Shown here: piece by piece, positions 3,941 through 8,710 of the stretch | How positions within the stretch are numbered: position 1 is the stretch's first letter | Layout of the letters: each line of letters opens with the position of its first letter | Notes under the pieces: generated by a model | Databases searched by the model: none | Told to the model about the DNA's origin: nothing | The model's input: only the letters and a program-made list of their open reading frames with translations | Source: Clostridia bacterium | Lineage (GTDB): Bacteria > Bacillota_A > Clostridia > Christensenellales > Aristaeellaceae | DNA: 16,489 nt | Assembly: GCA_017481185.1 (NCBI GenBank) | Contig: JAFUPO010000315.1 | Location: 1-16,489, forward strand | Direction of reading: 5' to 3' | Program-made: the position numbers and the translations under genes

Positions 3941-4010
3941 AAACAGTGTGCGTATGCAACTGGTTAAATCATGTTGTAACTGACCTGGCAAATAGCCCGG
4001 TTCATAGGAA

Positions 4011-4026: not shown

Positions 4027-5451
4027 GTGAGTGGAACTCGTATGTTTCCCGGTGGTGTGCATCCCCGGGAAGGCGTGAACGGCAAGGCAGTCACTGGCAT
4101 TTCGCCCATTCAAAAGGCTGCTGCTCCGTCTCGTGTCATCATTCCCATGCAGCAGCACATCGGTGCGCCCTGTAAGCCTGTGGTCGCTAAGGGCGATTAT
4201 GTGCGCGTGGGCCAGGTGATCGGTGAAGCGACCGGCTTTGTTTGTGCGCCGGTTCATGCCAGCGTTTCCGGCAAGGTGGTTGCAGTCGATCGATGTGTGT
4301 TGCCCAATGGTCTCCAAGCTGATGCAGTGATCATTGATAATGATTTCACTGATACTTGGGTTGAGCTTACCCCTGTGGCCGAGCCCGATAAGATGACCGG
4401 CAAGGATCTTGCTCAGGTTGTTTTGAAGGCTGGCATCGTAGGTTTGGGCGGCGCTACGTTCCCCACCCATGTGAAGTTGAGTCCTCCTGCGGATCAAAAG
4501 CTGGATACGCTGGTGGTAAACGGCGCTGAATGTGAACCGTATCTGTCTGCTGACCACCGCTTGATGTTGGAAAACGCCGCTACCGTTATCGACGGCGTGA
4601 AGCTGATTATGACTGGCCTTGGTGTGGAACAGGCTGTTATCGGCGTTGAAGATAATAAGATGGACGCTATTAAGGCGCTGACTGATGCCGCAGCCTCCGT
4701 TAGCAGCAAGATCACTGTAAAGGCCCTGCCTGTGCGTTACCCTCAGGGCGGCGAAAAGCAGCTGATTTATGCGCTGACCAGGCGCCGCGTACCTAACGGC
4801 GGTCTGCCTGCTAAGGTTGGCGTTGTGGTCTGCAATGTAGGAACCGCCGCTGCCGTGAGCGAGGCCGTGCGTTTGGGCAAGCCCTTGATTGAGCGTGTGG
4901 TCACCGTTGGCGGTTTGGTGAACAATCCCGGCAACTTCCTTGCCCGTATTGGCACCCCTATTGAAGCGCTGATTGAACAGGCTGGCGGCCTGCAGAACGG
5001 CGTAAAGCAGTTGATCTACGGCGGTCCCATGATGGGTGCTGCTATCGCACGGTTGGCCATCCCTGTTACGAAGGGGTGCTCTGGTATTTTGGCCTTGGGT
5101 CAGGAAGCAAAAGAGCCCGAGGAGAGCGCCTGCATCCGCTGTGGGCGGTGTATTGACACCTGCCCGATGCTGTTGGTACCCACTGTGATGGATCAGTATA
5201 TGCGCGCTGACCGCTTTGATTTGGCTGAAAAGGCTGGTGTCATGAACTGCATGGAATGTGGCGCCTGCACCTTTGTGTGCCCTGCCAAGCGCAGCCTGAC
5301 TCAGAGCTTCCGCGTATCTAAAAAAGTGAGTGGTGAACAGCGCCGCAGGGCTGCCGCTAAGGCCGCTGCCGAAAAAGCCGCTGCTGAAGCTGCTGCCAAA
5401 GCTGCTGAAGAAGCTGCCAAGGCCGCTGAAACCGCTGAGAAGGAGGGTTAA
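4027..5451 (+). CDS. rnfC: Rnf complex subunit RnfC (NADH/FMN- and Fe-S-binding)
   Basis: RnfC is the peripheral cytoplasmic subunit that exchanges electrons with NAD+. The order is: an RnfC N-terminal and barrel-sandwich region (GGVHPRE, IPMQQHIGAPCKPVV); the complex I 51-kDa-like NADH/FMN domain (GIVGLGGATFPTHVK, VNGAECEPYLSADHRLML, YPQGGEKQLIYALT); a SLBB-like part; then two [4Fe-4S] motifs. With the GTG 4027 start (474 residues), these are C369/C372/C375/C379 and C408/C411/C414/C418. The last 35 or so residues are an Ala/Lys/Glu-rich tail. TTG 4021 is an alternative start. It is the first gene of the rnf operon and ends five bases before rnfD. The reaction is reversible ferredoxin:NAD+ oxidoreduction coupled to ion transport. 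Confidence 0.95.
   Translation: MSGTRMFPGGVHPREGVNGKAVTGISPIQKAAAPSRVIIPMQQHIGAPCKPVVAKGDYVRVGQVIGEATGFVCAPVHASVSGKVVAVDRCVLPNGLQADAVIIDNDFTDTWVELTPVAEPDKMTGKDLAQVVLKAGIVGLGGATFPTHVKLSPPADQKLDTLVVNGAECEPYLSADHRLMLENAATVIDGVKLIMTGLGVEQAVIGVEDNKMDAIKALTDAAASVSSKITVKALPVRYPQGGEKQLIYALTRRRVPNGGLPAKVGVVVCNVGTAAAVSEAVRLGKPLIERVVTVGGLVNNPGNFLARIGTPIEALIEQAGGLQNGVKQLIYGGPMMGAAIARLAIPVTKGCSGILALGQEAKEPEESACIRCGRCIDTCPMLLVPTVMDQYMRADRFDLAEKAGVMNCMECGACTFVCPAKRSLTQSFRVSKKVSGEQRRRAAAKAAAEKAAAEAAAKAAEEAAKAAETAEKEG
5341..5448 (+). repeat. Low-complexity Ala/Lys/Glu-coding repeats at the rnfC 3' end
   Basis: Repeated GCTGCC, GCCGCT and GCTGAAG units encode an alanine-rich, charged tail of short AAAEK- or AAEEAAK-like steps. 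The tail is predicted to be helical. E. coli RsxC is known to carry a long Ala/Lys-rich C-terminal extension; this is a short version. The imperfect repeat makes length variation between strains likely. Confidence 0.6.
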
Positions 5452-5456
5452 GGAAA

Positions 5457-6419
5457 ATGCAAAAGAAACTTGCTGTTACTTCCTCTCCCCATCTTCGCGC
5501 AAGCGTCACTACCCGCAGCGTGATGGCCGATGTATGCATCGCCTTGATCCCTGCCGGTCTGGCCAGCGTTTGGTTCTTCGGCCTGCGTGCCCTGATCCTG
5601 ATCCTGACCTGTGTGGCCAGCTGCGTATTGGTGGAGTATGCTTACCAGAAGATTACTCACCAGAAGGTGACTGCTGGCGATATGAGCGCTGTTGTAACCG
5701 GCCTTCTGCTGGCTTACAATCTGCCCGCCAACGCGCCTGCCTGGATGGCTGTTATCGGCTCTGTTATTGCCATCATCCTTGTGAAACAGATCTTTGGCGG
5801 CATCGGCCAAAACATTTTCAACCCCGCTCTGATGGCTCGCGCAATCCTGTTCATCAGCTGGGGCACCATCATGGCCAGCTATCCCCAGGCGACGCCCGGT
5901 GAGTGGATGGTTGGCATGGCTGGCGGCGCAGCAGATGCTATTTCGTCCGCTACGCCCTTGTCTGCTGTGGGCAGCGATACTTACTCTGTAATGAATCTGT
6001 TCCTGGGCAACGTGCCTGGCGTGCTGGGCGAAACCAGCAAGGTAGCATTGCTTTTGGGCGGCTTGTACCTCTTGGTTCGCAGGGTTATTGACTGGCGCAT
6101 TCCGGTTACCTTCATTGCCACTGTTTTTGTATGCTACCTGCTCAAGGACGGCGCGAACGTAGCCCTGTATCAGATCCTCTCTGGCGGTTTGTTCATCGGC
6201 GCTTTCTTTATGGCAACCGATTATGCTACGTCTCCCATCACGCCTTGGGGCAAGATCATTATGGGCGTGGGCTGCGGCCTGCTGCTCTTTGTGATTCGCG
6301 CCTTCGCCAACTATCCTGAAGGCTGCTCTTTCGCCATCCTGTTCATGAACATGGCGACTCCTTTGATCGACAAGTATACCATGCCTCGTTCCTTTGGGGA
6401 GGTGAAGCAGCATGGCTAA
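5457..6419 (+). CDS. rnfD: Rnf complex membrane subunit RnfD
   Basis: This 320-residue, very hydrophobic subunit of the NqrB/RnfD family has about ten membrane segments. It is thought to carry a covalent FMN and to form part of the ion path. The family core is clear in GDMSAVVTGLLLAYNLP, GGIGQNIFNPALMAR and the late segment DYATSPITPWGK. The flavin attachment motif reads DAISSATPLS, with the predicted acceptor at Thr166; the usual form is SGAT, so one Gly is Ser here. The start ATG 5457 follows AAGGAGG (5440-5446) in the rnfC end. The 3' end overlaps rnfE by 8 bases. In most clostridial operons rnfG would stand between these two genes, but no such gene or fused FMN-binding domain is present here. 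Confidence 0.94.
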   Translation: MQKKLAVTSSPHLRASVTTRSVMADVCIALIPAGLASVWFFGLRALILILTCVASCVLVEYAYQKITHQKVTAGDMSAVVTGLLLAYNLPANAPAWMAVIGSVIAIILVKQIFGGIGQNIFNPALMARAILFISWGTIMASYPQATPGEWMVGMAGGAADAISSATPLSAVGSDTYSVMNLFLGNVPGVLGETSKVALLLGGLYLLVRRVIDWRIPVTFIATVFVCYLLKDGANVALYQILSGGLFIGAFFMATDYATSPITPWGKIIMGVGCGLLLFVIRAFANYPEGCSFAILFMNMATPLIDKYTMPRSFGEVKQHG

Positions 6420-7053
6420 GCAGAAGAACAATCTGATGAAGATCTTCTTCAATGGTATTCTCAATGAGAACCCCACTTTCCGCCTGGTGCTTGGTATGTG
6501 TCCTACGCTGGCTATTACCACCGCTGGCAGCCAGGGCTTGGGCATGGGTTTGGCAACTACTGCGGTGTTGGTGTGTTCCAACCTCTTCATTTCTTTGCTC
6601 CGCAACATCATTCCCGAAAAGGTTCGTATTCCTGCCTTTGTTGTCGTCATTGCTTCTTTTGTGACGATGGTTCAGATGGTGATTAAGGCGTTCCTGCCAG
6701 CGCTTGATGAATCTTTGGGCATTTTCATCCCCTTGATCGTGGTGAACTGCATTATCTTTGCCCGTGCAGAAGCGTTTGCTTTCAAAAACGGTCCTGTAGC
6801 ATCCGTGATGGATGGTTTGGGCATGGGGCTCGGCTTTACCGGTGCGATCACCCTTCTTTCCGTGATTCGCGAGGTCATCAGCGCTGGCACGATCTTTGGC
6901 GCGGCCGTGATGCCCGAAACCTATCAGCCCATGGCCATCATCGGCCAGCCGGCTGGCGGCTTCATCACCCTGGGTATTCTGCTAGCTGTTGTCAATGCTA
7001 TCACCAAGATGTTTGAGAAGCGCAAGGCGACTCGGAAGGAGGAGATGGCATGA
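6412..7053 (+). CDS. rnfE: Rnf complex membrane subunit RnfE
   Basis: This is a 213-residue integral membrane protein of the RnfE/NqrD family with about six membrane segments. RnfE and RnfA are homologous, lie in the membrane in opposite orientation and share a [2Fe-2S] cluster held by two Cys from each. Both Cys are here: Cys30 in LVLGMCPTLAITT and Cys113 in VVNCIIFARAEAFA. Other family hallmarks are FFNGILNENPTFR near the N-terminus and DGLGMGLGFTGAI followed by IREVI. The C-terminus is short and basic. The start overlaps the end of rnfD by 8 bases, and the stop overlaps the rnfA start by four (ATGA), so the genes are probably translationally coupled. Confidence 0.95.
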   Translation: MAKQKNNLMKIFFNGILNENPTFRLVLGMCPTLAITTAGSQGLGMGLATTAVLVCSNLFISLLRNIIPEKVRIPAFVVVIASFVTMVQMVIKAFLPALDESLGIFIPLIVVNCIIFARAEAFAFKNGPVASVMDGLGMGLGFTGAITLLSVIREVISAGTIFGAAVMPETYQPMAIIGQPAGGFITLGILLAVVNAITKMFEKRKATRKEEMA

Positions 7054-7622
7054 ATTACCTGATGATTCTGATTGGCGCTATCCTGGTCAACAACTTTGTT
7101 ATGAACAAGTTCCTTGGCTGCTGCCCCTTCCTGGGTGTCTCCAAGAAGATCGATACCGCCTTTGGCATGGGTATGGCTGTAACCTTCGTTATGGCCCTGG
7201 CCTCCCTGATCACCTGGATGGTGCAATATTGGATCCTTGTTCCTCTGGATCTTGAATATTTGCAGACCATCGCGTTCATCCTGGTCATCGCTGTGCTGGT
7301 GCAGGTGGTTGAAATGGCTTTGAAGAAGCTGAGCTACTCCCTGTACCAGGCCCTGGGCGTTTACCTGCCCCTGATCACCACCAACTGCGCGGTGCTGGGC
7401 GTGACTATTTTGAATGTGACCGAGAGCTACAATCTCCTTGAGTCCGTTGTGAACGGCGTCGGCTCCGCTTTGGGCTTTACGCTGGCAATCGTGCTGTTTG
7501 CCGGCATCCGCGAGCGCTTGGCTCTTACCAAGATGCCTAAGTGGATGGATGGTTTCCCCGGCGCCCTGATCACTGCCGGCCTGATGGCTGTAACATTTGT
7601 TGGCTTCGGCGGTCTTGTGTAA
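7050..7622 (+). CDS. rnfA: Rnf complex membrane subunit RnfA
   Basis: This is a 190-residue membrane protein of the RnfA/NqrE family with about six membrane segments. It pairs with RnfE to hold the intramembrane [2Fe-2S] cluster. Cys25 (in KFLGCCPFLGVSKK) and Cys113 (in ITTNCAVLGV) are the expected ligands; an extra Cys24 sits beside the first. Conserved NNFVMNKFLG and FAGIRERL are also present. The Shine-Dalgarno AAGGAGG at 7036-7042 is seven bases before the ATG, and the gene overlaps rnfE by four bases. The next gene, rnfB, follows after a 20-base gap. The length is normal for the family. Confidence 0.95.
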   Translation: MNYLMILIGAILVNNFVMNKFLGCCPFLGVSKKIDTAFGMGMAVTFVMALASLITWMVQYWILVPLDLEYLQTIAFILVIAVLVQVVEMALKKLSYSLYQALGVYLPLITTNCAVLGVTILNVTESYNLLESVVNGVGSALGFTLAIVLFAGIRERLALTKMPKWMDGFPGALITAGLMAVTFVGFGGLV

Positions 7623-7642: not shown

Positions 7643-8710
7643 ATGAGTGCTATTTTGATTGCGACCCTCGTGGTCGGCGCAATGGGTCTCGTTTTCGGCC
7701 TTTTGCTGACTTTTACGTCCAAGGTCTTTGCGGTACCCTCCAACCCCACTCGCGATGCGGTTCGCGATGTTTTACCCGGTGCCAACTGCGGCGCTTGCGG
7801 TTATCCTGGCTGCGACGGCTTGGCTGATGCCATTGCTGGCGGCAAAGCGCCTATCAACGCCTGCCCTGTGGGCGGCTCTGCTGTTGCTGATCAAATCGCC
7901 ACCATTATGGGGGTTGAACCTGTCGATGCTAGCACCAAGATGGTAGCAACTGTGATCTGCCAGGGCTCTAGCGAGCAGTGCAAAACCAAGTTCAATTATC
8001 ATGGTATTCAGGACTGCGTAGCCGCCTCCCTCGTGTCTGACGGCAACAAGGCTTGCTCCTACGCTTGCCTTGGCTTGGGCACGTGCGTTCGCGCCTGCCC
8101 CTTCGATGCCATCCATATTGATGAAAACAAGAAGCTGGCCGTTGTGGATCCTGATAAGTGCCAGAGCTGCGGCAAGTGCATTGACGCTTGCCCCAAGCAC
8201 GTACTTGAGCTCCAACCCGTAACCCAGCCTGTGCGGCTGATGTGCCGTGCTGCTGATAAGGGCAAGCTTGTTGCAGACAATTGCCGTGTCGGCTGCGTTG
8301 GCTGCGAGATCTGCGCAAACCAGTGTAAATTTGGTGCGATCACCATTGTCAACCACCTGCCTCAGTTCGATATGAACAAGTGCGTTGGCTGCATGATGTG
8401 CGCCGAAGTTTGCCCGACCTCTGCTATTTGGGCTGATTTTGACAACCGAAAGATCGCTGAGATTGACAAATCGCAGTGCATTGGCTGCACCCTGTGCAAG
8501 CGTACCTGCCAGTTTGAAGCCATCGCTGGTGAGCGCAAAACGCCCCATGAGGTTACTGAGGCCTGCACCGGCTGTGGGCAGTGTGCTGCCAAGTGCCCCA
8601 AGAAGTGTATCACCATGAAGGTGCGCGAGCACGTTCGCGATGAGTATGCGAAGGTTGGCACCACGCCTAACAATGCTGCCATCCCTGTTAAAGCGGCAGA
8701 ACAGGCTTAA
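7643..8710 (+). CDS. rnfB: Rnf complex ferredoxin-accepting subunit RnfB, extended
   Basis: RnfB is the electron entry point from reduced ferredoxin. This copy has 355 residues. One N-terminal membrane anchor (about residues 3-30) precedes the Fe-S domain, which has C49, C52, C57 and C74 in NCGACGYPGC and NACPVGG. Six more cysteine quartets follow: CSYACLGLGTCVRACP, CQSCGKCIDACP, a GCVGCEICANQC group, CVGCMMCAEVCP, CIGCTLCKRTC and CTGCGQCAAKCP. This predicts seven clusters, compared with three in short proteobacterial forms. The last two quartets make a C-terminal ferredoxin-like extension. The start ATG 7643 has a GTGAGG-type Shine-Dalgarno 8 bases upstream. It is the last gene of the operon and is followed by a strong terminator. 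Confidence 0.96.
   Translation: MSAILIATLVVGAMGLVFGLLLTFTSKVFAVPSNPTRDAVRDVLPGANCGACGYPGCDGLADAIAGGKAPINACPVGGSAVADQIATIMGVEPVDASTKMVATVICQGSSEQCKTKFNYHGIQDCVAASLVSDGNKACSYACLGLGTCVRACPFDAIHIDENKKLAVVDPDKCQSCGKCIDACPKHVLELQPVTQPVRLMCRAADKGKLVADNCRVGCVGCEICANQCKFGAITIVNHLPQFDMNKCVGCMMCAEVCPTSAIWADFDNRKIAEIDKSQCIGCTLCKRTCQFEAIAGERKTPHEVTEACTGCGQCAAKCPKKCITMKVREHVRDEYAKVGTTPNNAAIPVKAAEQA

Follow-up and report, generated by a model that had tools for sequence, protein, structure and literature searches.

An Rnf operon without rnfG in a Clostridia bacterium and the probable relocation of rnfG beside apbE

We analysed the Rnf genes on a 16,489-nucleotide contig (JAFUPO010000315.1, assembly GCA_017481185.1) from a Clostridia bacterium of the Christensenellales, referred to in its full length as the window. 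The Rnf gene order of Acetobacterium woodii and Clostridium tetanomorphum is rnfCDGEAB. The plus strand of the window carries rnfC-D-E-A-B, flanked by recN on one side and maf-mreBCD on the other (mreD is named from its position alone, without a Pfam match), and rnfD runs directly into rnfE (Table 1). All five subunits, assigned with NCBIfam models, are present and intact, and each scores above its model's own cut-off. RnfC contains a domain for NADH (reduced nicotinamide adenine dinucleotide) and flavin mononucleotide (FMN) together with two 4Fe-4S motifs, cysteines stand at positions 30, 55 and 113 of RnfE and 24, 25 and 113 of RnfA, and RnfD retains an FMN-attachment threonine, T166 in the motif SSATPL, that aligns with A. 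woodii T156 (numbering counted by hand). We rejected a Na+-NQR identity, with NqrF and NqrA replacing RnfB and RnfC: the RnfB and RnfC models pass, and NqrA models reach 28–50 bits against cut-offs above 300. The start of rnfC is uncertain, the GTG at 4027 behind GGGAGG being more likely than the GTG at 3946 that opens the open reading frame (ORF); at its other end, RnfC continues past the second 4Fe-4S motif into a long Ala/Lys/Glu-rich tail (about 5340–5448).

No RnfG was found in the window by the searches made there. Pfam analysis of the five Rnf subunits detected no FMN_bind domain, with RnfD matching NQR2_RnfD_RnfE only, which rules out an FMN domain fused to another Rnf subunit in the window. 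The ten other main ORFs gave neither FMN_bind nor ApbE (Pfam, E up to 1e-8), and a six-frame search of the 16.5 kb with one FMN-attachment pattern returned no match. Thus the overlapping rnfD and rnfE leave no rnfG in this operon. A preliminary description of the locus, made from the letters alone, had already noted the missing rnfG, the unfused and otherwise intact subunits and an 8-base rnfD/rnfE overlap at 6412–6419, all of which hold; the overlap is exactly 8 bases because the shared bases are ATGGCTAA.

Table 1. Rnf genes and junction features in the window
Feature	Position	Strand	Evidence or remark
rnfC	4027..5451	+	TIGR01945, 544 bits; Pfam RnfC_N, Complex1_51K, SLBB, Fer4
rnfD	5457..6419	+	TIGR01946, 341 bits; aligned to 9eri_D and 7zc6_D
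ribosome-binding-like GGGGAGGTG	6396..6404	+	within the last rnfD codons (FGEV)
rnfD/rnfE overlap ATGGCTAA	6412..6419	+	8 shared bases; slot of the rnfG start in relative G005
rnfE	6412..7053	+	TIGR01948, 233 bits
rnfA	7050..7622	+	TIGR01943, 275 bits
rnfB	7643..8710	+	TIGR01944, 172 bits; Pfam FeS domain and five Fer4 stretches

The junction recurs in related genomes. A scan of a genome collection with RnfD gave 592 confirmed matches, and among the best 80 there were 75 loci in which the two genes, rnfD and rnfE, could be located, with rnfE directly after rnfD in seven (L001–L004, L006, L007 and L010). RnfD was found in 263 of 300 genomes in the family-level group of L001, the closest being 72% identical to that of the window; a protein collection also contains an identical (100%) RnfD, without gene context. 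We then compared 108 loci drawn from the best RnfD matches, terming rnfG displaced where rnfE lies within 100 bases of the rnfD stop: 58 loci have this arrangement, 43 have a larger gap and seven were unmeasurable, proportions that give no estimate of prevalence because the loci were chosen by RnfD similarity. In a phylogeny built from concatenated RnfC, RnfD, RnfE and RnfA sequences (109 rows, quick method, LG+G4), in which six of the seven unmeasured loci were scored as having a multi-domain rnfG in place from ORF evidence, the 58 displaced loci and the window form one group that requires a single change (support 70), and the window falls among displaced loci in a clade of 44 rows (support 99). 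The overlap is an estimated 8 bases in 24 of the 58 displaced loci and 8, 10 or 11 bases in 45. An assembly deletion of rnfG in this contig, raised in the preliminary description as a possible refutation, has nothing beyond the missing gene in its favor and can be discounted, because the same junction occurs in 58 other genomes that group with the window on the tree.

The site itself looks like one from which rnfG was removed cleanly, leaving the locus otherwise unchanged. In G005, a relative with rnfG in place, the first 8 bases of rnfG overlap rnfD and follow GGGGAGGTG; rnfE of the window occupies this same slot behind the same site, and the genes upstream (TlyA, NAD kinase, ArgR and RecN) are common to displaced genomes G001–G004 and G007 and to G016, where rnfG is in place. 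More widely, the same ribosome-binding-like site stands ahead of rnfG in relatives that have the gene in place, and a site of this kind is present at the end of rnfD in 56 of the 58 displaced loci, in 35 of the 43 with a gap and in all seven unmeasured ones.

A recognisable RnfG, with membrane stalk and FMN domain, is encoded elsewhere in 54 of the 58 displaced genomes, and a near full-length match to the RnfG model TIGR01947 was found in 51, the other three being G227, G221 and G239 (genome counts here were made by hand from result tables). ApbE was matched in 54 of 57 relatives searched (17 of 17 in one set and 37 of 40 in another), with a weak match in G296 (25.5 bits) and a partial one in G011 (38.7 bits); among 14 named control genomes the RnfG and FMN_bind models matched in 4 and ApbE in 7. 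In the window's clade, 39 of 43 genomes carry rnfG directly after apbE on the same strand, with the model matches within about 0.35 kb; the four exceptions are G203, where rnfG is present and apbE was not found in the 8 kb inspected, G296, G195 and G175. Linkage of rnfG and apbE is variable in displaced genomes outside this clade. Downstream of rnfB in G006, at a distance of about 0.6 kb, come apbE and rnfG in the same orientation; the contig of G007 that carries rnfD also carries rnfG, about 54 kb away. These relatives lack rnfG at the D-E junction and mostly carry it at another place, which in the window's clade is beside apbE in nearly every case. We infer the same arrangement for the window's genome: very probably, the window holds the CDEAB core of an ordinary Rnf whose RnfG is encoded elsewhere, most likely directly downstream of apbE.

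An Rnf that truly works with five subunits, with RnfG lost and the RnfD flavin receiving electrons straight from the RnfA/E cluster, or with electrons taking some other route, would also produce an operon without rnfG, and RnfG was not found in three of the 58 displaced genomes (G296, G175 and G154). All three keep the RnfD flavin threonine, and a search for apbE in two of them returned nothing in G175 and the weak match alone in G296, the combination expected of an incomplete genome sequence; close sisters of both (G301 of G296, G162 of G175) possess rnfG. Missing sequence is the simpler reason for all three, if not a proven one. G195 was dismissed as an RnfG-less genome, as its contig ends within the gene, leaving an RnfG fragment with an 81% match to the rnfG region of its sister G148. 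With RnfG kept in 54 of 58 relatives, and with the A. woodii RnfG substitutions T185A and Y113A each reported to abolish activity and growth (PMC11889175), a five-subunit Rnf is very improbable. Of the two readings first offered for the locus, RnfG encoded elsewhere is thus borne out in relatives sharing the junction, where the rnfG gene named beforehand as a refuting observation was indeed found, and an Rnf with one fewer flavin subunit gains no support.

In an ordinary Rnf with a relocated RnfG, ApbE would attach FMN to both RnfD and RnfG, and the first RnfG domain would swing between the [2Fe-2S] cluster of RnfA/E and the FMN of RnfD as in A. woodii, a shuttle (reviewed in PMC12174285) that would yield ferredoxin:NAD+ oxidoreduction coupled to ion pumping. 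Since the rest of the machine looks ordinary, the first RnfG domain is most likely this normal shuttle.

The relocated RnfG usually carries extra FMN domains: relatives encode a stalk and first FMN domain followed by further FMN_bind domains, with 3 to 11 stretches in seven proteins scanned and no CXXCH heme motif among 15 RnfG sequences inspected, which include partial ones. Enlarged forms also stand in place, as at L009, L017 and L018, where an ORF with many FMN_bind domains occupies a 2.1–2.4 kb rnfD-rnfE gap. Outside the window's group, gaps of about 1.2–1.3 kb, twice the usual rnfG size, occur at L013, L014, L020, L038, L043 and L072 and are perhaps separate rnfG enlargements. From 30 loci scanned, a script picked ten ORFs above 400 aa other than RnfG, and all ten combine FAD_binding_2 with FMN_bind. 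They belong to genomes with a multi-domain RnfG: in five cases rnfG is displaced, and in the other five it stands in place. The N-termini of these proteins (L084, L085, L087, L088, L096, L098–L100, L102 and L103) are mostly signal-like, secretion being judged from them by eye. As Meheust et al. 2021 proposed for multi-flavin RnfGs (PMC8238504), the extra FMN domains, where present, may form an outward branch; its electrons might go to secreted flavin reductases or to further acceptors outside the cell.

In its extreme form this idea becomes a one-way exporter, in which RnfG of an RnfABCDE core sends all electrons outward through the flavin chain to secreted reductases and none back to RnfD. 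The multi-domain RnfG and the several FMN_bind/FAD_binding_2 proteins of some genomes fit such a machine. The intact NADH site of RnfC and FMN threonine of RnfD in the window speak against it, because an exporter would need neither, and the threonine is kept in all 58 displaced relatives: a strict pattern missed 26, in all of which it was read by eye, once within SGT instead of AT. In addition, G004 has no FMN_bind match outside RnfG, and we consider a one-way exporter improbable.

FMN_bind counts, which include RnfG's own domains, agree in part with a pairing of multi-flavin RnfG and abundant reductases. Where a single-domain rnfG stands in place, the genome has one match (G005, G011, G012, G016, G017, G058, G022, G164, G093, G125 and G038) or two (G043, G105 and G054). 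Extended RnfG occurs with few matches in G004 (three) and G158 (two), which run counter to a general link, and we accept that link as partial only. Five relatives (G071, G179, G167, G231 and G118; loci L209–L212 and L214–L219) show one rnfD match and two RnfG genes, a short one of 171–297 aa and a long one of 404–774 aa. These pairs, which possible contamination of the genomes could also produce, suggest as a speculative and rather unlikely reading of the sequences that RnfG is an exchangeable module: a short RnfG might set one RnfCDEAB core to NAD+ reduction and ion pumping, a long multi-flavin RnfG might set the same core to electron export toward secreted flavin reductases, and the cell would switch output by the RnfG it makes.

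Several observations weigh against an ordinary Rnf with a relocated, outward-branching RnfG. The window's own rnfG was not seen, and its probable location is deduced from relatives. Besides the three genomes in which RnfG was not found, there are G227, G221 and G239, where the stalk and the first RnfG domain share an ORF and are kept apart by additional FMN-domain sequence. The displaced group has a support of just 70% by the quick tree method, and G005, with its single-domain rnfG in place, branches beside it. For the side branch in particular, single-domain displaced RnfGs exist (G070 and G119), and all three FMN_bind matches of G004 fall within RnfG itself. Separately, the intervening FMN-domain sequence of G239, G221 and G227 (L181, L182 and L183) is rearranged and looks permuted.

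Within Rnf, RnfG serves as the central mobile flavin shuttle, and placing its gene off the operon beside that of the flavin transferase could uncouple the amount and version of RnfG from the rest of the complex. Judging an Rnf incomplete for want of rnfG in the operon would be the wrong call for most of this clade, which offers a natural test of whether RnfG can pass electrons to the outside in addition to returning them to NAD+. In the parts of the openly licensed full-text literature consulted, we found neither double RnfGs nor any account of rnfG having left the operon in this clade. Multi-flavin RnfG is already known; unreported, within that literature, are the placement of rnfG with apbE away from the operon and the doubling of RnfG. 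The available text of two papers writes rnfCDEAB without G, and without comment, for Limnochordia and DTU015 genomes (PMC11456536, PMC10215811), where rnfG may likewise be displaced or missing.

Among known systems, the Rnf complexes of A. woodii and C. tetanomorphum (PDB 9eri and 7zc6) are close to that of the window. The five window subunits belong to the same families, RnfD keeps the FMN threonine, and the relocated RnfG of relative G002 matches RnfG in sequence and in predicted fold. The window differs from both in having no rnfG between rnfD and rnfE, and its relatives in having rnfG mostly near apbE, often with several FMN domains. Meheust et al. 2021 described multi-flavinylated RnfG in RNF clusters, proposed a second route to outside acceptors and named Christensenellales (PMC8238504). 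The relatives' RnfG is similarly extended by further FMN_bind domains, but the RnfGs in the sections consulted lie inside RNF gene clusters and one subset bears a multi-heme domain, whereas the rnfG of these relatives is separate from the rnf operon and the sequences examined lack CXXCH. CbFMN4 and SaFMN3 (Tong et al. 2023, PMC10339131) are also membrane-anchored chains of FMN domains encoded beside a flavin transferase gene, and single domains from them can be superposed on the final domain of a predicted RnfG model, although the portions of that paper at hand do not describe them as RnfG. Finally, Nqr/Rnf-like two-subunit systems, as far as the excerpted accounts go (PMC8238504, PMC10979944), likewise pair a membrane component resembling RnfD with a flavin subunit that faces outward; they consist of two subunits only, whereas the window encodes the full CDEAB core.
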